NCBI GenBank assembly: GCA_017881585.1
Contig: JADGQS010000020.1
Location: forward strand, 1 to 34,532
Source: Gemmatimonadaceae bacterium
GTDB lineage: Bacteria > Gemmatimonadota > Gemmatimonadetes > Gemmatimonadales > Gemmatimonadaceae
DNA length: 34,532 nucleotides
Direction of reading: 5' to 3'
Below, piece after piece: positions 22,943 to 34,532 of the stretch (the stretch's first letter is position 1; the number at the start of each line of letters is the position of its first letter). Below the pieces are notes generated by a model. That model saw only the letters and a list, made by a program, of their open reading frames with translations, made no database searches and was not told where the DNA came from. A program made the position numbers and the translations under genes.

Positions 22943-24190
22943 TCAGCTCCGCATTCCGGTGATCACGGCATCGCCGAAGCCCGTGGTCGAGACTTCGGTG
23001 GATCCCGGCATCTGCCGGGCGAGATCGTACGTCACGGTGCCGGCGGCGATCGCCTTCTCGACGCCCTTCACGATGAGCGTCGCGGCTTCGTTCCAGCCCA
23101 TGTGCTGGAACATCATGACCCCGGAGAGGATCACGCTCCCCGGATTGATCTTGTCGAGCCCCGCGTACTTCGGCGCGGTGCCGTGCGTCGCCTCGAACAC
23201 GGCGGCCTCGTCGCCGACGTTGCCGCCCGGCGCGATGCCAAGCCCGCCCACCTGCGCCGCGGCCGCGTCGGAGAGGTAGTCGCCGTTCAGGTTGGGCGTC
23301 GCGATCACCTCGTAGTCCTCGGGACGCAGCAGGAGCTGCTGGAACATCGAGTCGGCGATGCGATCCTTGAGGATCACGGCGTCTGCGCGGGCGGTGCTCC
23401 CCGCCTTGTTCAGGTCGGCCTCGGTGACGACGAGATTCTTGAACTCGTCGCGCGCCACTTCATACCCCCAGTCGCGAAAACCGCCTTCCGTGAATTTCAT
23501 GATGTTTCCCTTGTGCATCATCGTCACGGATTTCTTGTTGTTCTTCAGCGCGTACTCGAGCGCCATCTTCACGAGCCGCTTTGACCCGAAGGGCGACATC
23601 GGCTTGATGCCGATCGCCGAGCCCTTGCGAATCTTCTCCGAGAATTCCTTCTCGATGAACGAGCGGAGCTTTTCCGCTTCCGGCGAGCCGGCGCGGAATT
23701 CGATTCCCGAGTACACATCCTCGACGTTCTCGCGGAAGATCATGATGTTGAGCTTTTCCGGATGCTTCATCGGGGCGCCGACGCCCGTGAAGTAGCGCAC
23801 GGGCCGGATGCAGGCGTAGAGATCGAGTTCCTGCCGCAGCGCGACGTTCAGCGACCGGAAGCCGCCGCCGATCGGCGTGGTGAGCGGTCCTTTGATCGCG
23901 ACCTTGAACTCGCGCACGGCCTCGATCGACTCCGCGGGCAGCCACTCGCCCGTCGTCTTGAAGGCCTTCTCGCCCGCGAGGATTTCCATCCACGCGATCT
24001 TGCGCTTGGCGCCGTACGCGATCTGCACCGCGGCGTCGAATACGCGCACCGAGGCGCGCCAGATGTCGGGGCCCGTGCCGTCACCCTCGATGAACGGGAT
24101 GACGGGATGGTCGGGAATGCTGAACTTTCCGCCCGAGGCCTCGATGCGATCGGCGCCCGCCGGAACCTTGGCATGCTTGTATTGAGTCAC
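22943..24190 (-). CDS. icd: Isocitrate dehydrogenase (NADP-dependent type)
   Basis: 415 aa from GTG 24190 with AGAGGG ten bases upstream. It oxidises isocitrate to 2-oxoglutarate. Visible: [11 protein letters not shown] (residues 34-44), the substrate loop [20 protein letters not shown], whose Ser is the phosphorylation site in E. coli, [14 protein letters not shown] with the catalytic Tyr, [15 protein letters not shown], and [15 protein letters not shown], in which the Lys-Tyr pair indicates NADP. pepA follows directly. A possible terminator hairpin lies in the upstream gap. Confidence 0.96.
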
Positions 24191-24236
24191 GGTGCTGCGT
24201 CCCTCTAGGTGTCGGTAAGATGGCGAAAACTAGGAG

Positions 24237-24254
24237 TGCTCCTCGGGCGGAGCA
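24237..24254 (-). terminator. Weak hairpin between the serine-glyoxylate aminotransferase and icd
   Basis: TGCTCC and GGAGCA form a 6-bp stem around a 6-base loop. On the minus strand CTCCTAGTTTTC follows, with only a four-T run a few bases away. It lies 36 bp past the aminotransferase stop, which fits a weak terminator or attenuator. Confidence 0.3.
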
Positions 24255-24289
24255 AGGAAAACATTTCGACGCTTTTCGGCCACTCGTGC

Positions 24290-25465
24290 TCAGCCGGTGG
24301 CGGTCTCCCGATACCACTGCTGTGCCGCTGCCACACCGCTGCCGAGCGTCACGGGAATTCCCGCGTCGTTCAACGCCATCTCGACGCCGGAGAGCGCGCC
24401 GAGCACCATGAGCTCGTTGATGTCGCCGACATGCCCGATGCGGAAGACTTTCCCGACGAGACGGCCCGTACCGCCGCCGAGCGACAGGTTGTAGCGGCGG
24501 AACGCGATGTCGATGACCTTCTTCGCGTCGAGGCCATCGGGCACCACGACGGCCGAGACCGTGTCCGAGTAGATCTTGGGGTCGAGGGCGCAGAGCTTGA
24601 GGCCCCACGCCGCGATCGCCCGTCGTACGCCTTCTCCGAGCCGATGATGCCGCGCCGCGACGTTGGCGAGTCCCTCTTCGAAGAGCAGGTCGAGTGCGGC
24701 GCGAAGGCCGAACAGGTGCGCGATCGGCGGCGTGTACGGGAAGTACCCTTCCGCATTGTGCTTGATCTGGTCGCGCAGGTCGAAGAAGGCGCGAGGACAC
24801 TTGGCCTGGTCGAGAAGTCCGAGCGCCTTCTTGCTGACGCACAGGAACCCGATGCCGGGCGGCATCATGAATCCCTTCTGCGATCCGGCGATGGCGAAAT
24901 CCACTTTCCAATCGTCGAACCGGAAGTCGAGCGAGGCGACGGAACTCACGCCGTCGACGTAGAAGAGTGCCGGATGGATCGCCGCATCGATCGCGCGGCG
25001 GACGGCGGCGATGTCGCTGGTCACGCCCGTCGCGGTCTCGTTGTGCACGACGAGGACGGCCTTGTACCCGTGCGCGGTGTCCGCGGCGAGCATCTCGCCA
25101 ACTCGCGCGGCCGGCACGGCATCGCCCCACTCGACGTCGATCACGTCGACCTTGAGACCGAGACGCTGCGCGGTGTCGATGAACAGCGTGCTGAACTGCC
25201 CGTTCCGAACGGCGAGCACGCGGTTGCCCGGCGACAACGCATTGACGAGCGACGCTTCCCACATCGCGGAGCCGGACCCGGAGAAAATGAAGGCTTGGCC
25301 GTTCGCGCTGCCAAACACCTTGAGCAGGTCGGGAAAAATGGAGCGCGCCATCTCTGGAGCCGCCGATGATCGATGATCCTCCATCGGGCGATCCATCGCG
25401 CGCAGCACACGGTCGGGAACGTTGGTGGGTCCTGGAACGAAGAGAAAATGGCGGCCCGTCTTCAT
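24290..25465 (-). CDS. Class V aminotransferase, serine-glyoxylate/alanine-glyoxylate type
   Basis: 391 aa from ATG 25465 (MKTGRHFLFVPGPTNVPDRV); the upstream open frame is a shadow of the neighbouring gene. Family signs: GPTNVP and MEDHRS near the start, FSGSGSAMWE near 61, VVHNETATGV near 139, and PLP-binding Lys197 in AIAGSQKG preceded by DGVSSVASLDF. It ends with FRIGHVGDINELMVLGALSGVEMAL (given whole it runs past 20, so note the FRIGHVGDINEL core), a strong serine-glyoxylate aminotransferase signature. It probably transfers the amino group of serine or alanine to glyoxylate. The ATG overlaps the stop of the class I/II aminotransferase, so both are one transcription unit. Substrate is inferred from family only. 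Confidence 0.88.
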   Translation of the reverse strand: MKTGRHFLFVPGPTNVPDRVLRAMDRPMEDHRSSAAPEMARSIFPDLLKVFGSANGQAFIFSGSGSAMWEASLVNALSPGNRVLAVRNGQFSTLFIDTAQRLGLKVDVIDVEWGDAVPAARVGEMLAADTAHGYKAVLVVHNETATGVTSDIAAVRRAIDAAIHPALFYVDGVSSVASLDFRFDDWKVDFAIAGSQKGFMMPPGIGFLCVSKKALGLLDQAKCPRAFFDLRDQIKHNAEGYFPYTPPIAHLFGLRAALDLLFEEGLANVAARHHRLGEGVRRAIAAWGLKLCALDPKIYSDTVSAVVVPDGLDAKKVIDIAFRRYNLSLGGGTGRLVGKVFRIGHVGDINELMVLGALSGVEMALNDAGIPVTLGSGVAAAQQWYRETATG

Positions 25466-26622
25466 ACGATGGCTTTCAATCGTGAGAGGTTTTCGACTGC
25501 TCGCTCGAGCGTTTCGTGCTTCTTGCAAAATGCAAACCGGATGTAGCGCTTCCCTTCCGCGGCGCCGGGCCTGTAGAAACTCGATCCCGGCACGGTCGCG
25601 ACCTGGATCTCCTTCGTCATCCACTTCGCGAACGTCACGTCGTCACGATCGTCGAGGCCCGAGAAATCGGCCATGATGAAATAGGCGCCGTCCGGCGTCG
25701 CGAATTTGAAGCCGGCCTCGCGCAGTGCGCCGCTCAGGAACTCGCGCTTCGCCTTGTAATCGCCGGCGAGCTTCGCGTAGTACGAGTCATCGAACGAATA
25801 TCCGATCGCGGCCGCATCCTGCAGCGGTGCCGGCGCGCCGACCGTCAGGAAATCGTGCACCTTGCGGATCGCGCTCGTGCGCTCGGCGTTCGCGATGGCA
25901 TAGCCGATGCGCCATCCGGTGATGCTGAACGTCTTCGACAGGCTGGAGATCGTGACCGTGCGATCGCGCATGCCGCGGATGGTCGCGATCGGAATGTGTT
26001 CGCCCGAAAAGATGATGTACTCATACGGATCGTCGGTGAAGACCATGAGGTCGTGCTCGACGCAGACCCTCGCAATGGCTTCGATCTCGGCGCGCGAGAA
26101 CACGTGCCCGGTCGGATTGTGCGGCGAGTTGAGGACGAGGGCGCGTGCGCGCGGCGTGATGGCGGCGCGGAGTGCCGCTTCGTCGAACTTCCATTCCGGC
26201 GGCGTGAGCGGGACGAACACCGGCTTCGCCCCGCAGAGGATCGCGTCGGGCCCGTAGTTCTCGTAGAACGGCTCGAAGATCAGCACTTCGTCGCCGGGAT
26301 TGAGCAGCGCGAGGAACACCGACGCCGCGGCCTCGGTGGCGCCGCAGGTGACGGTGATCTCACGCTCCGGATCCACGGACATGCCGTATCGCCGGTCGTA
26401 CTTGCCCGTGATCGCGTCGCGAAGCTTCTTGGAGCCCCACGTCGTGGCGTACTGGTTGATGTCGTTGTGAATGGCGGCGCAGGCCGCGTCCTTCATCACG
26501 GAGGGCATGGGAAAGTCCGGGAACCCCTGCGAGAGGTTCACCGCGCCATGCTCGTTGGCGACGCGGGTCATCTCGCGAATCACGGACTCGCTGAACGTCA
26601 GCGTGCGCAGGGCGTTGGGCAT
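25462..26622 (-). CDS. Class I/II pyridoxal-phosphate aminotransferase (methionine/kynurenine aminotransferase-like)
   Basis: 386 aa. Visible: AVNLSQGFPDFPMP (residues 27-40), INQYATTWGSKKLRDAI, TCGATEAA near 92, NSPHNPTGHVF near 165, Asp197 and Tyr200 in FTDDPYEYI, PLP-binding Lys230 in SSLSKTFSITGWRIGY, and the substrate Arg in KRYIRFAFCKK near the end. The NLSQGFPDFP opening is typical of the YbdL/KAT group acting on methionine, aromatic amino acids or kynurenine. It lies 20 bp after the secreted-protein gene and overlaps the class V aminotransferase. Exact substrate unknown. Confidence 0.9.
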   Translation of the reverse strand: MPNALRTLTFSESVIREMTRVANEHGAVNLSQGFPDFPMPSVMKDAACAAIHNDINQYATTWGSKKLRDAITGKYDRRYGMSVDPEREITVTCGATEAAASVFLALLNPGDEVLIFEPFYENYGPDAILCGAKPVFVPLTPPEWKFDEAALRAAITPRARALVLNSPHNPTGHVFSRAEIEAIARVCVEHDLMVFTDDPYEYIIFSGEHIPIATIRGMRDRTVTISSLSKTFSITGWRIGYAIANAERTSAIRKVHDFLTVGAPAPLQDAAAIGYSFDDSYYAKLAGDYKAKREFLSGALREAGFKFATPDGAYFIMADFSGLDDRDDVTFAKWMTKEIQVATVPGSSFYRPGAAEGKRYIRFAFCKKHETLERAVENLSRLKAIV

Positions 26623-26642
26623 GGACGGAATCTAGACGGTCA

Positions 26643-27884
26643 TCACTTGGAAGTGCGCTTCCGGGCGGTGATCAACACCGGGATATCGTCCGTGCGCGGG
26701 TTCACGAAATCGAGCCGGATGCGCCCGTCGGGCATTTCACTCACCGTGCCCGGCACGGAACTGTTGGCGAGCATCCATCCCGCGGGCAGGACCACCGCGT
26801 TCGCGGGCCGGCCGAAGCTGCGGTCCCACATCAGCTCGTTGCCTACGATCTTGTAGCGCACGGTATCCGTGTACGTCTCGAACATCCGGATGCGGACGGA
26901 CTCGCCGGTCTTCACCTGCGGAAAACGGAAGACGACGATCTCCGATTGCGGCGTCACGTTCACGACGCCCAGCTTCGCCCTGGTGATCGCGTCGCCCTGC
27001 AGCACTTCCCACTTGAGTTCCTCGCCCGTGTCGAGGTTGCGCGCCGAAGGCTTCGATACGGTGCTGCCCGCGCGCACTTCATTGATGTACGTGCCCGTGC
27101 CGGGGCGCGACTCCGTATAGTCGTGATAGAGATCGAACGCGTGCGTTTCGGGTTGCTGCAGGAAATAGACGATCTTCCTGTTCTGGTGCGCGCGCTCGTC
27201 GAGCCGCGCGGCGACGCCCGGAACGGCGGTTTTCGTCGCGCCAAGCCCCACCGCCGGACGCGCGCGCAGCGTGAGCGGCGCCTCGGCCGGCGTGCCGTTC
27301 CAGAAGCTGATGGCGACGCGGCCGTCGTCCTGCTGGATGACCTGTGACGGGTAGTTGCACGAGATCATCTCGTACCCGGGCGGCAGCACGACGGTGTTTC
27401 GCTTGATCCCGAGGGAACGCGTGAACACGATCACGTCGCCCTGCGCGAAATAACTCGCCGCATCTTCGTACGTCTTGAGGATCAGCACGCGCGCTTCGCC
27501 GCCATCCGCCGGCACGGGATGCGAGAGCTTCACCCGGATGTACGTCTGCGTGGAGTCCGTTCCCCGAACGCCGCCGGCCGTGGCGACCGCCTGACTGACG
27601 ACGTCGAACACGAGCGGCTTTCCCGTGGCACGATCGCTCACGCTCTCGTCGGTCGCGACACTCCCCTTCCGGATCGGATTGAAGTAGTACATCGCGCCGG
27701 GAGTGGTCGCGGTGACCTCATAGATGATCCGGAATTTGGCCGACCCCGGGGCGAGCAATTCATACCTGGTGTAGGCGTCGCCCTCGGTTTGCCGGGACGG
27801 ACCGCTCTGAGTCTGGCTCTGGGCGCGGGCGAACGCGGGAACGAGCAACGACACGCCAAGGGCGCACGTAACAATGCGGTTCAT
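26643..27884 (-). CDS. Secreted protein of unknown function with two tandem repeats of about 180 residues
   Basis: 413 aa from ATG 27884 with a clear signal peptide (MNRIVTCALGVSLLVPAFARA, cleavage expected after residue 21). I do not recognise the family. The mature part is two diverged copies of one beta-rich unit. Copy 1 contains TYEDAASYFAQGDVIVFTRS and NTVVLPPGYEM, then DGRVAISFWNGT and LTLRARP. Copy 2 contains TYTDTVRYKIVGNELMWDRS and NAVVLPAGWML, then DGRIRLDFVNPR and VLITARK. Aligned landmarks fall in the same order in both. It should be periplasmic or surface-exposed, perhaps in adhesion or binding. It is divergent from the formate dehydrogenase operon with a 139-bp shared upstream region. 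Confidence 0.75.
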   Translation of the reverse strand: MNRIVTCALGVSLLVPAFARAQSQTQSGPSRQTEGDAYTRYELLAPGSAKFRIIYEVTATTPGAMYYFNPIRKGSVATDESVSDRATGKPLVFDVVSQAVATAGGVRGTDSTQTYIRVKLSHPVPADGGEARVLILKTYEDAASYFAQGDVIVFTRSLGIKRNTVVLPPGYEMISCNYPSQVIQQDDGRVAISFWNGTPAEAPLTLRARPAVGLGATKTAVPGVAARLDERAHQNRKIVYFLQQPETHAFDLYHDYTESRPGTGTYINEVRAGSTVSKPSARNLDTGEELKWEVLQGDAITRAKLGVVNVTPQSEIVVFRFPQVKTGESVRIRMFETYTDTVRYKIVGNELMWDRSFGRPANAVVLPAGWMLANSSVPGTVSEMPDGRIRLDFVNPRTDDIPVLITARKRTSK

Positions 27885-28023
27885 GGGCGGACGATCCGAA
27901 AGAGGGGATGAATGCTTCTGAAAGTTACGCCCGGCCCAGTTCTCTCGCACCCTGCTCCGGGAATAGATTGGTGAGGAGTGAGGAGTGTGCCATCGGGAGT
28001 CACCTCGCCAGGAGAAGCACGGT
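27885..28023. other. Divergent intergenic region between the secreted-protein gene and the formate dehydrogenase operon
   Basis: 139 bp that must hold both upstream regions. I see TGAGGAG tandemly twice (27972-27985) and a strong ribosome site AGGAGA at 28010-28015, eight bases before the formate dehydrogenase ATG. I found no convincing sigma-70 or sigma-54 boxes in either direction. Confidence 0.5.
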
Positions 28024-29964
28024 ATGGCCCGCAATCGTTCGAAGCCCCGCCTGTATCCCCGCCTGACCACGCCGCTCGTGCGCGACAACGGTGTGCTCCG
28101 CCCCGCCACATGGGACGAAGCACTCGACCGCGCCGCGGATGGATTCCGGCGGAACATCGAAGCGCGCGGCCCGAACGCGCTCGGAATCTTCAGCTGCTCG
28201 AAGTCCACGAACGAAGTGAACTTCCTCGCGCAGAAGCTTTCCCGGGTCGCGTTCGGGACGCACAACATCGACAGCTGCAACCGAACGTGACACGCGCCTA
28301 GCGTCGTCGGTCTGGCGACGGTCTTCGGTGCGGGCGGCGGGACCAGTTCCTACCGCGAAGTGGAGGAGACGGACGTCGTCTTCCTCTGGGGCTCGAACGC
28401 GCGTGCGGCCCATCCGATCTGGTTCCATCACCTGCTGAAGGGGATCCACAACGGGGCCAAGCTCTACGTGATGGATCCGCGCCGCACCGAGTCGGCGCAG
28501 TGGGCCGACGTGTGGCTCGGGCTGAACGTCGGATCCGACATCGCGCTCAGCAACACGATGGCGCGCGAGATCATCCACGCGGGGCTCGTGCACCAGGAGT
28601 TCGTCTCGAACGCGACGTCCGGCTACGAGGCGTACAAGGCATCGGTCGAGTCCTACACACTTGAAAAGGGCGCGCTCCTCACCGGCGTGCCGGCCGACGT
28701 CATTCGCGACGCGGCGCACACGTTCGCGAAGGCCGACCGGGCGATGATCTGCTGGACGCTCGGCATCACGCAACATCACGACGCCGCCGACAACGTGCTC
28801 GCGCTGATCAACCTGTGCCTGCTCACCGGCCACGTGGGCCGCTGGGGCTGCGGGTGCAATCCGCTGCGCGGACAGAACAACGTGCAGGGCGGCGGCGACA
28901 TGGGCGCGATCCCGAACAAGTATCCGGGCTTCCAGGAGATCACGGATCCGTCGATTCAAGCGCGCTTCGAGAAGCACTGGACCGTGAAGCTGCAGCCGGA
29001 AGCGGGACGGAACCTCACGCAGATGCTCCACGCGATGGCGAGCGGCGAAATGACGTCGCTGTACGTGATCGGTGAGAACCCGGTGCAGTCGGATGCGGAC
29101 GGCCACCACGTCGAGCAGGCGCTCAAGGGACTCGATCATCTCGTCGTCCAGGAAATCGTGATGACGAAGACGGCCGAACTCGCGCACGTGGTGCTCCCGG
29201 CCGCCGCCACGTGGTGCGAGGGCGAGGGCACGGTGACCAACAGCGAGCGCCGCGTGCAGCGCTGCCGCAAGGCGAGCGAGCCGCCCGATGGCGCGAAGGA
29301 CGAACTCTGGATCATCGCACAGATCGCGAAGCGGCTCGGACACGACTGGGGGACGCCGACCGCCGAAGAAGTCTGGAACGAGTTTCGTGAGGTCGCGCCG
29401 GAATTCGCGGGCGGAATGTCCTATGAGCGGCTCGACGCGCTCAACGGCATCCAGTGGCCGTGCCCCGACGAGTCGCATCCCGGCACGACGTTCCTGCACG
29501 AGCGCCTGTGGGAGAAGGGCGAGAAGCGCGGGCCTGCGGCGCCGTTCACGGTCGTGCGTCACGAGGGACCGGTGGAGATGCCCGACGCGGAGTTTCCGCT
29601 GCTGCTCACAACGGGACGCCGCCTCGAGTCGTATAACACCGGAGTGCAGACGGCGGGCTACGACTCGCCGCTGCACTGGGGCGAAATGCTCGACATCTCG
29701 CCAGAGGATGCCGCACGCCTTGGCATCTCGGACAACGAAGAAGCGCGCATCACCTCGCGTCGCGGATCGGTCGTGGCGCCGGCGCACATCGACCGGTCGC
29801 TGCGGGCCGGGATGGTATTCATGACGTTTCACTTCCCCGAAAACGTGGCCACGAACCTTCTCACCCTCGACGTGTCGGATCCGAAATCCGGGACCGCGGA
29901 ATTCAAGGCGTGCGCGGTGCGCGTCGAACCGTCTCGCGCGTTGGCGGGTTCGGCCCACACCTGA
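28024..29964 (+). CDS. Formate dehydrogenase catalytic subunit, selenocysteine-containing, lacking the N-terminal [4Fe-4S] domain
   Basis: 646 aa if TGA at 28288-28290 is read as selenocysteine (Sec89); ATG 28024 has an ideal ribosome site. The frame continues smoothly through the TGA: NIDSCNRT-Sec-HAPSVVGL matches E. coli FdhF around its Sec140-His141, and homology holds on both sides. Other signs: LRPATWDEAL near 25, CNPLRGQNNVQG (Arg282, equivalent to FdhF Arg333), MTKTAELAHVVLPAA, and the C-terminal cofactor domain with TTGRRLESYNTG and FHFPENVATNLLT. It oxidises formate to CO2 at a molybdenum or tungsten bis-pterin site. Unusually, the Molybdop_Fe4S4 domain that normally starts these proteins is missing; it is found at the C-terminus of the protein at 31865-32851. 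The stop overlaps the NuoEF start. Confidence 0.93.
28291..28330 (+). promoter_or_regulatory. Bacterial SECIS-like hairpin directing selenocysteine insertion
   Basis: Right after the in-frame TGA, CGTCG (28302-28306) pairs with CGACG (28316-28320), with an inner C-G pair, a U that is bulged or wobble-paired, and the apical loop GGUCU (28309-28313). In E. coli fdhF, as I recall it, the SECIS loop is also (A)GGUCU and begins 18 nt after the UGA; here GGUCU also begins exactly 18 nt after. Loop, bulged U and spacing all fit SelB recognition. The outer stem is weak by eye. Confidence 0.8.
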
Positions 29965-31868
29965 TGGATATCCGCCTCCTCGACGCCGAGCCGACGGCCG
30001 AAGAACGATCCGCGGTCGATGACGTGCTGGGCGCTCCCGGTTCGTCGTGGGACGGCGGCGATCGGGGGAGCGCTCGCGACTCGCACACGGCGGAGTTCGG
30101 CGGCCGCGCCACGCGCGAGCGGCGTCACCTGCTGCTCCCCGCGTTCCAGGCGCTGCAGGCCCGGGTCGGATTCATCACGGAGGGAGGACTCGATTACGTC
30201 TGCGCCCGGCTCGGCGTGCCGCCGGCCGAGGCGTGGGGCGTCGCGACGTTCTACGCGATGCTCGCGACGTCGCCGCGGCCGCGGCGAATGGTGCATGTCT
30301 GCGACGACATTGCCTGCCGCGCGAAGGGCGCCGCCGGCCTGTGCGCGAGTCTCGAGCGCGAGGCGGGGGCCCCGATCTCGCATGAACCCGCCGGCCATCA
30401 CGTCGCGCTCGACCGCGAGAAGGCCGCCTGGATGCATTCGCCCTGCCTCGGGTTGTGCGACGTCGCGCCTGCCGCTCTCGTGGTCGAGGCGGGAGCGAAA
30501 ACGGTGGAGCGCTCGATCGGCCATGCGACGAAAGACGGCGTGCTGTCGCTGCTGGGCGGCAAGGCGCCGGGTCCCGACGGCGCGAGCACGCCGCACATCG
30601 GCCGGAGCCCGCTGATCGTCGGCGGCGGGCTGTTGGAGCGAGTCGGCAAGGTCGATCCGGCGAGCCTGGCAGCGTACCGCGCCGCCGGTGGATACGCGGC
30701 GCTCGCGAAGGCCGTCGATATGGGTGCCGAGGGTGTGATTCGCGAAGTCACCGCGTCGAACCTCGTCGGCCGCGGAGGCGCGGCGTTCCCCACGGGACGC
30801 AAGTGGGAAGCGGTGCGCACGCAGCCCGCGCAGCCGCATTACCTCGTCTGCAACGCCGACGAATCCGAGCCGGGCACGTTCAAGGACCGCGTGCTGCTCA
30901 CCGAAGATCCGTTCGCGATCGTCGAGGCGATGACGATCGGCGCATTTGCGACGGGAGCCGAAAAGGGATTTCTGTACATCCGTGCGGATTATCCGCTCGC
31001 GTACGAGCGAATGCAGGGCGCGATCGTGCAGGCTCGGGCGGCGGGATTGCTCGGCGAGAACATTCTCGGCCGCGGCCTGCGGTTCGACATCGAGATCCGT
31101 CGCGGTGCGGGCGCGTACATCTGCGGGGAAGAGACCGCGCTGTTCGAGTCGATCGAGGGCAAGCGCGGAGAGCCGCGCAACAAGCCGCCCTTCCCCGTTT
31201 CGTACGGATTGTTCGGCAAGCCGACGACGATGAACAATGTCGAGACGTTCGCGAACATTCCCGCCATCGTCCTCGACGGCGGCGCGGCGTTCGCCAAGGT
31301 GGGAACGGCACAGTCCACGGGCACGCGCTTGTTCTGCCTCAGCGGCACGGTACGGAAGCCCGGCGTGTACGAAGTGCCGTTCGGCACGAAGCTCTCCGCG
31401 CTGATCGGCATGGCCGGCGGCGTTCCCGAGGGACGCACCCTGAAGGCGGTGCTTCTGGGTGGTGCCGCCGGCGGTTTCGTCCGCGCCGACGAGCTCGACA
31501 TCACGCTCACTCACGAGGACACGCGAGCGACCGGCACCACGCTGGGCTCCGGCGTCGTGATGCTGTTCGACGAAACGGCGGACCTGCGCGACGCGGTGCT
31601 GCGCATCGCGGCGTTCTTCCGCGACGAGTCGTGCGGACAGTGCGTGCCCTGCCGCGTCGGGACCGTGCGGCAGGAAGAAGCGCTGCACCGCATCGCCAGC
31701 GGAAAGATGCGCGGCGGAGTGAAGGGTGAACTCGCGCTGCTCGACGAACTCGGCGATGCGATGAAGGACGGATCGATCTGCGGACTCGGACAGACGGCGT
31801 ACTCGGCGGTCGAGTCCGCCATCAAGCGACTTGGCCTCTACTCCGACGCGGGGAGCGCGACCGCATGA
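29964..31868 (+). CDS. Fused NuoE-NuoF-type NADH/diaphorase subunit of formate dehydrogenase
   Basis: 634 aa from ATG 29964, sharing one base with the preceding stop. Residues 1-200 are NuoE-like, with a [2Fe-2S] site from VCDDIAC and SPCLGLC. From about 210 on it is NuoF-like: FMN/NADH motif GRGGAAFPTGRKW, CNADESEPGTFKDR, GAGAYICGEETALFESIEG, MNNVET, and the C-terminal [4Fe-4S] motif SCGQCVPCRVGT with the fourth Cys in SICGLGQ. In NAD-dependent formate dehydrogenases these are separate gamma and beta subunits (FdsG, FdsB); here they are one chain. The presence of the FMN/NAD module shows the enzyme uses NAD(H). It overlaps the next gene by four bases (ATGA). Confidence 0.93.
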   Translation: MDIRLLDAEPTAEERSAVDDVLGAPGSSWDGGDRGSARDSHTAEFGGRATRERRHLLLPAFQALQARVGFITEGGLDYVCARLGVPPAEAWGVATFYAMLATSPRPRRMVHVCDDIACRAKGAAGLCASLEREAGAPISHEPAGHHVALDREKAAWMHSPCLGLCDVAPAALVVEAGAKTVERSIGHATKDGVLSLLGGKAPGPDGASTPHIGRSPLIVGGGLLERVGKVDPASLAAYRAAGGYAALAKAVDMGAEGVIREVTASNLVGRGGAAFPTGRKWEAVRTQPAQPHYLVCNADESEPGTFKDRVLLTEDPFAIVEAMTIGAFATGAEKGFLYIRADYPLAYERMQGAIVQARAAGLLGENILGRGLRFDIEIRRGAGAYICGEETALFESIEGKRGEPRNKPPFPVSYGLFGKPTTMNNVETFANIPAIVLDGGAAFAKVGTAQSTGTRLFCLSGTVRKPGVYEVPFGTKLSALIGMAGGVPEGRTLKAVLLGGAAGGFVRADELDITLTHEDTRATGTTLGSGVVMLFDETADLRDAVLRIAAFFRDESCGQCVPCRVGTVRQEEALHRIASGKMRGGVKGELALLDELGDAMKDGSICGLGQTAYSAVESAIKRLGLYSDAGSATA

Positions 31869-32851
31869 CGACGCCCTTCGTGCAGATTCGCCGGCCCGAC
31901 CGCGAGCCGAAGAAGATGGTTGAGCTGCAAGTCGATGGAATTGCGGTCAGTGTTCCGGAAGGTACGACGATTCTTGGCGCCGCCCGCACCATCGGCATCG
32001 ACATTCCCACGCTCTGCTATCTCGAGACGCTGCGGCCGGTGAATGTCTGCCGCGTCTGCATGGTGGAGGTCGAAGGTTCGCGCGTGCTCGTGCCGAGCTG
32101 TTCGCGCGCGGCCGAGCCTGGAATGATCGTCCGCACCGGCAACGATCGGGTGAAACACACGCGGAAGATGGTGCTCGAGCTGCTCGCCTCGTCGGTGGAT
32201 CTCTCCACGACGCCGGGGATGGCCGCGCTGCTCGATGAGTACGAATGCGATCCGGAACGATACGGGCCGCCCGCGCCGCCGGCTGCCGCCGGTGTACGCG
32301 ATGCCGCCGTGTGTGGCCATCACACGCCGCCGAACCCCGATTTCGCGGCGACGCTCGCGCAGCCGCCGATCGTCGACAACGACCTCTACGTGCGCGACTA
32401 CGCCAAGTGCGTGCTCTGTTACAAGTGCGTGGAAGCGTGCGGCGTCGATCACCAGAACACGTTCGCGATCGCGGTGGCGGGACGCGGCTTCGATGCGCGC
32501 ATCTCCACCGAACTCGCCGTGACGCTGCCCGACTCGGCGTGCGTGTATTGCGGCAACTGCATCGCGGTGTGCCCCACCGGCGCGCTGATGGCCAAGCGCG
32601 AGTTCGACATGCGCGGCGACGGCAGCTGGCACGAGGAGAAGCAGACGAGCGCCGACACGATCTGCCCCTACTGCGGCGTCGGATGCACGCTCACGCTTCA
32701 CGTGCAGGATAACGAGATCGTGAAAGCCACGTCGCCCCTCGACAACGGCATCACGATGGGAAACCTCTGTATCAAGGGCCGGTTCGGCTGGCGATTCGTG
32801 CAAAGGAAGCCGGAAGCCGGAAGCCAGGAAGCCGGAACCGGGGCGCTATGA
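31865..32851 (+). CDS. Formate dehydrogenase iron-sulfur subunit ending in the displaced molybdopterin [4Fe-4S] domain
   Basis: 328 aa. In order: NuoG/FdsA-type [2Fe-2S] domain with Cys51, 62, 65, 79 (TLCYLE, NVCRVC, PSCS); a linker of about 100 residues where relatives have a His-Cys3 cluster (HxxxCxxC...C), not seen here; two ferredoxin clusters CVLCYKCVEAC (182-192) and CVYCGNCIAVCP (226-237); and a Molybdop_Fe4S4 domain CPYCGVGC (267-274) with LCIKGRFGW (Cys302, Lys304). Lys304 matches FdhF Lys44, which bridges cluster and cofactor. Everything after RFVQ is a short repeat-coded tail. The catalytic half that should follow in one chain is the separate protein at 28024. Electrons should flow from the Mo site through these clusters to NuoEF. 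Confidence 0.92.
   Translation: MTTPFVQIRRPDREPKKMVELQVDGIAVSVPEGTTILGAARTIGIDIPTLCYLETLRPVNVCRVCMVEVEGSRVLVPSCSRAAEPGMIVRTGNDRVKHTRKMVLELLASSVDLSTTPGMAALLDEYECDPERYGPPAPPAAAGVRDAAVCGHHTPPNPDFAATLAQPPIVDNDLYVRDYAKCVLCYKCVEACGVDHQNTFAIAVAGRGFDARISTELAVTLPDSACVYCGNCIAVCPTGALMAKREFDMRGDGSWHEEKQTSADTICPYCGVGCTLTLHVQDNEIVKATSPLDNGITMGNLCIKGRFGWRFVQRKPEAGSQEAGTGAL
32805..32839 (+). repeat. GGAAGCC tandem microrepeat encoding the tail of the iron-sulfur subunit
   Basis: Four copies of GGAAGCC (one followed by an extra A) and a degenerate fifth, GGAACC, run across the last codons, translating to the KPEAGSQEAG tail. The repeat starts exactly where the Molybdop_Fe4S4 domain ends and stops nine bases before the fdhD start. 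Confidence 0.8.
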
Positions 32852-33648
32852 CCGTGGACGTTCCGGCGCGCGAGCATGAGTTCGTGCGGCTCACCGGTGC
32901 TATGCGCGCTGACGAATGCGCGCCGGTCGCCGAGGAAGTGCCCGTCGCGTTTGTTTATTCCGGGCGGCCGCACGTGGTGATGATGTGTTCGCCGGACGAT
33001 CTGGAAGATCTCGCGTACGGGTTTTCGCTCACAGAAGGAATCGTCGAGCGCGCGTCAGAGATCGAGCGCGTCGAACTTTCGCGTCACGCGCGCGGTGCGG
33101 AGCTCGCGATCACGATTCCGCCGGAGGCAGCGGCGCGCCTCTCGCAGCGAACGCGCGCGCTCGCAGGGCGCACGGGCTGTGGCCTGTGCGGCGTCGAGGC
33201 GATCGATGACGCCGTGCGGGCGGTGCGCCGGGTAGAATCTCCGCTGACCCTTTCAACGGACGCGCTCTGGCGCGCCGGCGAGTCGCTCGACGCGCACCAG
33301 CCGCTCAACCGCCAGACGCACGCGGTGCATGCGGCGGCCTGGGCAACACCCGACGGCGCGCTCGTCGTCGTTCGCGAGGACGTAGGCCGGCACAACGCGC
33401 TCGATAAAGTTCTCGGTGCGCTCGCGCGTGCGGGCACCGATGCATCAACGGGGTTTCTGGTCGTCACCAGCCGCGCGAGCTTCGAACTGGTGCAAAAGGC
33501 TTCCGCGGCCGGAGTCGCCATTCTTGCCGCTGTTTCACGTCCCACCGGACTCGCGGTGCGCATCGCCGATGCGTCCGGCATCACCCTGGTCGGCCTGCTC
33601 CGCGGCCAAACCGCAAACATCTACTCGCATCCAGAGCGCATCACGTGA
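32848..33648 (+). CDS. fdhD: Formate dehydrogenase accessory sulfurtransferase FdhD
   Basis: 266 aa. FdhD passes sulfur from a cysteine desulfurase to the formate dehydrogenase molybdenum cofactor. Visible: [19 protein letters not shown] (residues 48-66), the sulfur-carrying Cys pair GRTGCGLCG (Cys111, Cys114), THAVHAAAW near 148, [13 protein letters not shown] near 167, [12 protein letters not shown] and [10 protein letters not shown] near the end, all hallmarks of the family. The ATG overlaps the iron-sulfur subunit stop; its own stop overlaps fhs. Confidence 0.96.
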
Positions 33649-34532
33649 TTCCTTCCGATATCGAAATCGCACAGTCCGCCCGCCCGCGTCCCATCACCGA
33701 CGTCGCGGCCGACCTGGGGCTCGGTCCCGACGAGCTCGATCTCTACGGCAAGTACAAGGCGAAGATTCCGCTCGAAATTTCAGAGCGTCCCGTGCGGGGA
33801 CGATTGGTGCTCGTCACCGCCATCAGTCCCACGCCGGCCGGCGAGGGCAAGAGCACGGTGAGCGTCGGGCTCACGCAGGCGATGCGCCGCCTCGGATCGA
33901 ACGCCGTGCTCTGCATGCGCGAGCCGAGTCTCGGTCCGGTGTTCGGCGTGAAGGGCGGCGCGGCCGGCGGCGGATATTCGCAGGTGATTCCGATGGAGGA
34001 CATCAACCTCCACTTCACCGGCGACTTCCACGCGATCTCGAGCGCGCACGCGCTGCTCGCGGCGATGCTCGACAACTCTCTACAGCAGGGAAACCCGACC
34101 GGGCTCGATTCGCGGCGCATCACCTGGCCGCGCACGATCGACATGAACGATCGCGCACTGCGCCATGCGGTGATCGGGCTCGGCGGCGCCGCAGACGGCG
34201 TCGTGCGCGAAGAGCACTGGGTCATCATTCCGGCGAGCGAGATCATGGCGATCGTCGCGCTCGCGACGAGCCGCGCGGACCTCGAGGAGCGCCTCGGCCG
34301 CATCATCGTCGGATCCACGGCCGGCAAGAACAAGGCGCCGGTGCGCGCGCGCGATCTCAAGGCGTCGGGCGCGATGGCGATGCTGCTGAAGGATGCCATC
34401 CGCCCGAACCTCGTGCAGACGCTCGAAGGAGGTCCCGCGTTCGTGCACGCCGGCCCGTTCGGCAACATCGCGCACGGCTGCAACAGCATCCTCGCGACGC
34501 GCTCCGCGCTCGCGCTCGCCGACGTGGTGGTG
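33645..34532 (+). CDS. fhs: Formate-tetrahydrofolate ligase (partial, C-terminus outside window)
   Basis: The first 296 codons; the gene runs off the right edge. It starts with GTG at 33645, overlapping the fdhD stop (GTGA). It reads [17 protein letters not shown], then YGKYKAKI near 35, the ATP P-loop [14 protein letters not shown] near 62, [20 protein letters not shown] near 90, and [15 protein letters not shown] near 112, and continues [30 protein letters not shown] in the family pattern (shown in part; core [16 protein letters not shown]). It makes 10-formyl-THF from formate, ATP and THF. Lying in the formate dehydrogenase operon, it connects CO2/formate interconversion to one-carbon metabolism. 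Confidence 0.97.

Follow-up and report, generated by a model that had tools for sequence, protein, structure and literature searches.

A predicted NAD-linked formate dehydrogenase with an alpha chain divided between two genes

The window is the 34,532-nucleotide contig JADGQS010000020.1 of a Gemmatimonadaceae bacterium (GCA_017881585.1, a draft assembly of 240 contigs that is 90% complete), and from position 28,024 onwards it carries a formate dehydrogenase operon in which the alpha chain is encoded by two genes. The catalytic chain (cat) does not contain the proximal Fe4S4 domain, which instead forms the C-terminus of an iron-sulphur (Fe-S) protein encoded two genes downstream. This split is a real, conserved design in at least seven bacterial phyla. 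The operon is predicted to encode a formate dehydrogenase linked to nicotinamide adenine dinucleotide (NAD) whose Mo/W-[4Fe-4S] pair is formed across two chains, a reading to which a probability of about 85% is assigned. It is most likely a cytoplasmic enzyme of the FdsABG/MeFDH1 kind with Mo or W held by bis(molybdopterin guanine dinucleotide) (bisMGD), the cut in the alpha chain separating the proximal Fe4S4 domain from the bisMGD core. What is new in the split is the architecture; the enzyme itself is of a known kind.

The divided alpha chain

The two halves of the alpha chain flank the diaphorase gene on opposite sides, and the features that define the enzyme are the following.

28024..29964 (+), cat, formate dehydrogenase catalytic chain: MopB core and dinucleotide-binding domain without an Fe4S4 domain, selenocysteine (Sec) predicted at residue 89
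28288..28290 (+), in-frame TGA read as Sec: FdhF Sec140 site, motif NRT-U-HAPS
28303..28319 (+), hairpin resembling a Sec insertion sequence (SECIS), GTCGTC-GGTCT-GGCGAC, 3' of the TGA
29964..31868 (+), NuoE-NuoF fusion, diaphorase: 2Fe-2S thioredoxin-like domain, Complex1_51K flavin mononucleotide (FMN) domain, SLBB, NADH_4Fe-4S
31865..32851 (+), Fe-S protein: [2Fe-2S] domain, Fer4 dicluster, C-terminal proximal Fe4S4 domain
32651..32803 (+), proximal Fe4S4 domain, absent from cat: Cys267, 270, 274 and 302, with Lys304 equivalent to FdhF Lys44

A Pfam scan finds only the Molybdopterin and Molydop_binding domains in cat and no Fe4S4 domain, and assigns to the Fe-S protein Fer2_4, Fer4-type domains and a C-terminal Molybdop_Fe4S4 domain at residues 263-313 (61.4 bits against a cut-off of 22.7). 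The NCBIfam model of the formate dehydrogenase alpha chain, TIGR01591, is tiled over both proteins, with model positions 52-672 on cat (662.6 bits) and 1-52 on the Fe-S protein (47.1 bits). Cat by itself falls about 4 bits short of the whole-protein cut-off of 666.25 because the first 51 model positions are encoded by another gene, and the two scores sum to 709.7. The best Protein Data Bank chain for the Fe-S protein is Rhodobacter capsulatus FdsA (6tg9_A), of which residues 18-304 match the Fe-S protein and 308-935 match cat. Hence the [2Fe-2S], Fer4 dicluster, Fe4S4 and core domains, which stand together in the one-chain alpha of the FdsABG/MeFDH1 type, are here distributed over two proteins. 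In the alignment with Escherichia coli FdhF, residues 1-60 of FdhF are without a real counterpart in cat (12 of 60 positions placed, and these scattered) and correspond to the end of the Fe-S protein. An original prediction, made from the DNA letters of the window, had cat begin just past the N-terminal cluster domain of FdhF and placed the missing domain at the C-terminus of the Fe-S protein; the first point is borne out by FdhF, which matches cat from residue 58, and the second by Pfam, TIGR01591 and the tiling of 6tg9_A.

The position of the cut can be read from fused relatives, above all from six Gemmatimonadota Sec enzymes (L053, L169, L170, L172, L173, L174) that form the sister clade of the split family in both alpha trees. 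These have a linker of about three residues at the split point, as in FVQ-HPD-RL; in the split family the Fe-S protein terminates shortly past FVQ, and the cat of the window begins about a dozen residues ahead of RL. The fused label was given to 22 loci in which an Fe4S4 match precedes the catalytic one. The two matches stand 0-12 bases apart in 16 of these loci and 126-273 bases apart in the other six; in those six the catalytic match begins later, at residue 25, beyond an insertion. L183, which is among the 22, is FdhF-like and has no match to the remainder of the Fe-S protein.

Modelled alone with AlphaFold (AF2), cat reaches a mean predicted local distance difference test (pLDDT) of 81.5 and a predicted template modelling score of 0.79. 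A Foldseek search with this model returns MeFDH1 (7vw6_A) at the top, with a template modelling score of 0.86 on the query, and FdhF (1fdi) third, with 0.88.

Active site, clusters and selenocysteine

Alignment with E. coli FdhF (L191) places Sec89, His90, Arg282 and Gln284 of cat at FdhF positions 140, 141, 333 and 335, and these four positions are kept in all 28 aligned catalytic chains. The MopB catalytic core with Sec or Cys, His and Arg that marks the FdsABG/MeFDH1 type is therefore present. Cat also retains both further segments of FdhF domain I, with 29/29 and 40/42 positions aligned; these segments we take to be residues 448-476 and 499-540. On the other chain all 16 cluster cysteines and the Lys equivalent to FdhF Lys44 are invariant in 37/37 aligned Fe-S proteins, and the motif CxxCxxxC..CxKG is present in 101/101 split Fe-S proteins. 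These ligands would suffice for one [2Fe-2S] and three [4Fe-4S] clusters, in addition to the conserved Lys. The importance of this residue is known from E. coli FdhH, where Lys44Arg was the sole Lys44 mutant to retain activity (7.1%) and K44E and K44M lost more than 90% of the cluster; the edge-to-edge distance between cluster and bisMGD in that enzyme is 6.1 A (PMC12176258).

In the R. capsulatus enzyme (RcFDH) the direct electron path runs through A1-A2-A3-A5-B6, and a further cluster, A4, lies off this path near Cys121 at the dimer interface (PMC7171172); Cys121 falls within the HPLDCLTC stretch of 6tg9_A. The A4 site was sought as the strict His-Cys3 motif H-x3-C-x2-C-x5-C. Two of the 103 split loci (L081, L132) failed the stop/length filter, and the motif is found in none of the remaining 101 split Fe-S proteins. 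It occurs in 5 of 18 fused rows and in the NuoG of the window's genome, and is absent from all six fused sisters. MeFDH1 also is described without a counterpart of RcFDH A4, which is numbered A5 there (PMC10869683). The loss of A4 seems to be older than the split, because the six fused sisters likewise do not have the motif. The ligands for every cluster of the direct path (A1, A2, A3, A5 and the NuoF cluster) are retained, and judged by these ligands no direct-path cluster is missing in the split family.

The ATG start codon of cat is preceded by AGGAGA, and the translation, which opens MARNRSKPRLYPRLTTPLVRDNG, contains one in-frame TGA. The genome encodes SelB (296.5 bits, or 331.5 with its neighbour, against a cut-off of 242.25) and a tRNA-Sec (77.4 bits, in which ARAGORN concurs). 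A second match to the tRNA-Sec model, at 47.5 bits just above the cut-off, was discarded, being a tRNA-Ser by ARAGORN. An Rfam search of 24000-34532 gave no match at E up to 1, so the grounds for the SECIS assignment are the conserved hairpin and the Sec genes, not membership of a curated family. The features expected of a bacterial selenoprotein, in-frame TGA with hairpin, SelB and tRNA-Sec, are thus all present and point to a Sec-containing catalytic chain, as the original prediction had it. Among 103 split loci the Sec site is readable in 83 (20 are not readable), with TGA in 76 and Cys in 7. The Cys-type loci (L112, L113, L129, L130, L131, L136, L137) all belong to Actinomycetota, L136 being that of Streptomonospora nanhaiensis. 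The GGTCT loop is found in the expected stretch 3' of the TGA in 74/76 split Sec loci and in 6/6 fused Sec sisters. One split-type catalytic chain with 62% identity (G200:C136:27365-29263, + strand) has two in-frame TGA codons rather than one.

Distribution of the split

An Fe-S protein of the split kind is present in 25 of 61 genomes (60 relatives plus that of the window), as a single match in 20 and as two neighbouring pieces in 5. The 24 loci taken from these (L029-L052) show cat, then NuoE-NuoF, then the Fe-S protein in 21 cases; in L037, L046 and L052 the diaphorase match reaches the contig edge and no cat is visible. Among the matches listed for 298 genomes of the phylum, a catalytic chain with at least 62% identity is found in 34; that of G011 is divided into two pieces on separate contigs. 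The open frames that contain these chains do not exceed 839 residues, and most of the listed relatives at 39-46% identity lie in frames longer than 900 residues.

A wider scan of named genomes used the split Fe-S protein as query, and the best 80 of at least 576 relatives were examined; these 80 loci are expected to be of the split kind because of the query, and as some of them come from the same assemblies as loci of the relatives set, the two sets are not independent. The full three-gene order is present in 68 of the 80, a contig edge leaves no room for cat in 11, and one is without an adjacent cat. By record title the loci belong to Gemmatimonadota (22), Acidobacteriota (18), Actinomycetota (18), Chloroflexota (10), Planctomycetota (7), Vulcanimicrobiota (2) and Myxococcota (1), with no phylum given for 2. 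The 68 loci with the full order include one on the complete Streptomonospora nanhaiensis chromosome. In none of the best 80 loci is there a further Fe4S4 match above 35 bits. The plasmids in PLSDB show no close split type: 1418 records have a match, and in every one of them the best place stays below 60% identity. That the split is conserved in seven named phyla speaks for joint function of the two chains. The search for the same split elsewhere proposed with the original prediction therefore finds the same gene order in other assemblies, and the architecture it called unusual stands as a real split but not as a local oddity: it belongs to a widespread family, mostly with Sec and with Cys in some Actinomycetota.

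Three loci titled Planctomycetota (L064, L073, L084) have catalytic chains that fall inside the Gemmatimonadota group, through gene transfer or mislabelled bins.

Comparison with known systems

Among the closest characterised enzymes is MeFDH1 of Methylorubrum extorquens (7vw6, 8j83), the best Foldseek match of the catalytic chain. Its alpha chain holds one [2Fe-2S] and three [4Fe-4S] clusters with no counterpart of RcFDH A4, and its beta chain is a diaphorase unit with FMN, [4Fe-4S] and [2Fe-2S] (PMC10869683). It differs in that the alpha is one chain of 989 residues, whereas here there are two proteins with the diaphorase gene between them. The MeFDH1 beta chain presumably has its NuoE and NuoF parts fused in one chain, as here, and we take its active-site residue to be Cys where the window enzyme has Sec. 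R. capsulatus FdsABGD (6tg9) has the same series of domains but a one-chain FdsA, separate FdsG and FdsB and the extra cluster A4. E. coli FdhF (FdhH) shares the catalytic residues and fold, but it has its own N-terminal Fe4S4 domain and no diaphorase. The six fused sisters share Sec, the GGTCT hairpin and the absence of the A4 motif (6/6), and NuoE-NuoF is one frame in the 4/6 where it was found, L169 and L173 having no diaphorase gene within the locus; they differ in that the Fe-S, Fe4S4 and catalytic domains form one chain, encoded downstream of the diaphorase gene where this was found.

A MopB enzyme divided between genes is known in formylmethanofuran dehydrogenase FwdB/FwdD, in which FwdB has 432 residues. 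There the dinucleotide-binding domain is detached on FwdD and the Fe4S4 domain remains with the catalytic chain, unlike in the split family. Fdh3 of Thermococcus onnurineus was weighed as a possible precedent but rejected: the Fdh3A protein has a mass of 76.5 kDa and its catalytic Cys at residue 133 (PMC8965080), and since size and Cys133 fit FdhF-type chains it is probably one of these, with its own Fe4S4 domain. No description of a split formate dehydrogenase alpha was found in the accessible parts of the open-licence literature, a scope that leaves closed-access papers, preprints and supplements outside, and the corresponding parts of PMC13397495, PMC8808070, PMC10100899, PMC11237513, PMC8965080, PMC7171172, PMC10869683 and PMC7365893 mention none.

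Origin and alternative explanations

In a catalytic-chain tree of 40 rows the split rows form one clade (100/100) that is joined to the six fused Sec-containing rows (96/94), and a quick tree of 57 rows gives a support of 96 for the same grouping; in both, E. coli FdhF serves as the root. The Fe-S tree (31 split rows, 18 fused rows and NuoG) recovers the split clade at 100/99 and its pairing with the same fused clade at 92/74. As the two alpha halves seem to share their history, one gene fission of the alpha chain is suggested. In a survey of the MopB family FdsA is proposed to be the product of a fusion between a formate dehydrogenase and a hydrogenase-like Fe-S protein (PMC10100899); the cut in the split family differs from this fusion joint, as the Fe4S4 domain went with the Fe-S protein.

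Several observations weigh against the proposed two-chain enzyme or its history. The Fe-S chain alone gives a poor AlphaFold model, with a mean pLDDT of 57.7 and residues 163-241 below 50; this model is uninformative, and its Foldseek matches carry no weight here. The equivalents of FdhF Asp179 and Ser180, which are named beside Lys44 in a figure legend (PMC12176258), are not kept in the 28 aligned catalytic chains: the Asp179 place is Glu in 20, Asp in 4, Ala in 3 and Phe in 1, the Ser180 place is Thr in 15, Ala in 12 and Asn in 1, and the window has Ala-Ala. In the Chloroflexota locus L124 (3054-5974) NuoE-NuoF and the Fe-S protein are accompanied by a different gene at the place of cat. The same genome has a cat fragment with 67% identity at the edge of a different contig (G311:C135), and because of this the halves may be unlinked there. 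The Fe-S tree carries a long-branch warning at the join of split rows and fused sisters. Lastly the NuoF tree, which included just the four fused sisters with a diaphorase in the locus, likewise recovers a single split clade, yet places it, with weak support (83/84), beside other fused rows and not beside the sister clade. The joint descent of the diaphorase with the alpha chain is therefore not confirmed. A duplication-and-loss scenario in which the whole operon was circularly permuted fits the gene order but was dropped, as the NuoF tree does not back it; the arrangement had been called permuted, and this holds for the order of the genes, the trees backing fission of the alpha chain only.

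In a 90%-complete draft one might suspect that a fused alpha gene was broken artificially, through an error of sequencing, assembly or binning, but this is already refuted by the recurrence of the arrangement, in 25/61 genomes for the Fe-S protein and in 68/80 best named loci for the full order, a complete chromosome included; moreover the NuoE-NuoF gene stands between the two halves. The original prediction had itself named such an error as a possible objection, along with a complete alpha chain elsewhere, and the latter falls away too as far as the 90%-complete assembly extends. No other formate dehydrogenase was found in it, and its three other molybdopterin-domain proteins score below the TIGR01591 cut-off and resemble other families: C73 resembles an alternative complex III / Qrc protein, C109 is like dimethyl sulphoxide reductase (dmsA_ynfE 289.6 bits, then formate dehydrogenase alpha 259 bits against 666.25), and C119 is NuoG-like. 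It is extremely improbable that the halves are rejoined after translation into one chain by a split intein or another ligation. Nothing was found in its favour, the Pfam scan shows no intein-like domain in either protein, and the 1-64 residues that follow the Fe4S4 domain in 104 loci, mostly fewer than 25, are too short for the N-terminal half of a split intein, which is longer.

An ancestral split, in which the unfused state predates the fusion that gave rise to FdsA, draws on the fusion origin proposed in the MopB survey (PMC10100899) and is very unlikely. An unfused ancestor would leave the Fe4S4 domain on the catalytic chain as in FdhF, but here it belongs to the Fe-S protein, which indicates a cut at another joint than the ancestral one, and the FdhF-rooted trees place the split rows as one clade beside fused rows. 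It is also unlikely, if slightly less so, that the C-terminal Fe4S4 domain is vestigial or docked elsewhere and that the electrons of cat take another route. Cluster N7 of Thermus thermophilus complex I, which is disconnected, is regarded as a remnant (PMC7171172), and the change at Asp179/Ser180 fits such a view. The four cysteines and the Lys are however invariant in 37/37, and the dicluster that holds the A2-type cluster, the link from A1 to the chain, is retained. Cat would moreover be left without the [4Fe-4S] cluster that is termed ubiquitous in Mo-containing formate dehydrogenases (PMC12176258).

Proposed mechanism and significance

In the proposed two-chain enzyme formate would be oxidised at the Sec-Mo/W(MGD)2 site of the catalytic chain, and the electrons would cross the chain boundary from the bisMGD site into the proximal [4Fe-4S] cluster on the Fe-S chain. 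From there they would pass through the dicluster and the [2Fe-2S] cluster of that chain to the [4Fe-4S] cluster of NuoF, FMN and NAD+. With its C-terminal tail the Fe-S chain is expected to supply the segment of FdhF domain I that cat lacks, docking tightly at the FdhF position, in which case the active-site relay and the Lys bridge would form on assembly only and the catalytic, Fe-S and diaphorase chains would constitute an obligate heterotrimer. Pfam identifies a NuoE/NuoF-type FMN diaphorase in the operon; the NAD-linked activity itself is predicted.

More tentatively, and with rather long odds, the proximal [4Fe-4S] relay with its Lys bridge could be a detachable module, so that the bisMGD site is closed at the very end, and under control, by docking of the Fe-S chain. 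This might allow separate Mo/W-Sec and Fe-S maturation, on/off switching, or other redox partners for cat, and if true it would make the active-site electron exit of a formate dehydrogenase a protein-protein interface. With the Mo/W-[4Fe-4S] pair on two proteins, the contact between Lys and cluster would be directly testable by mixing or omitting subunits, and for the engineering of CO2 reduction the catalytic and relay parts would already be separate in nature. The Cys versions in named Nocardiopsis, Streptomonospora and Saccharopolyspora strains would require no selenium machinery. Split catalytic chains may also be misnamed or unnamed in surveys and automatic annotation, as the cat of the window falls just under the curated score for the alpha chain.

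Genomic context

The operon at 28024-34532 is a single tight unit on the + strand in the order cat, NuoE-NuoF, Fe-S protein, fdhD, fhs. Every junction overlaps by one or four bases, cat and NuoE-NuoF by 1 base and NuoE-NuoF/Fe-S protein and Fe-S protein/fdhD by 4 bases. The two remaining genes are the following.

32848..33648 (+), fdhD, sulfurtransferase for cofactor maturation
33645..34532 (+), fhs, formate-tetrahydrofolate ligase, truncated by the contig end

The fhs gene adjoins the split operon in Gemmatimonadota and in some Planctomycetota, which suggests a role in one-carbon (C1) metabolism. Beside fhs the enzyme could balance formate between C1-tetrahydrofolate and CO2 plus NADH.

The divergent neighbour of the operon, at 26643-27884 (-), has a secreted-like N-terminus (MNRIVTCALGVSLLVPAFARAQ) and by eye apparently two similar halves. 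Further upstream, at 24290-25624 (-), an aminotransferase is closest to BhcA, L-aspartate-glyoxylate aminotransferase (549.7 bits against a cut-off of 650), which presumably belongs to the beta-hydroxyaspartate cycle, and its gene adjoins that of an NADP isocitrate dehydrogenase (22943-24190).

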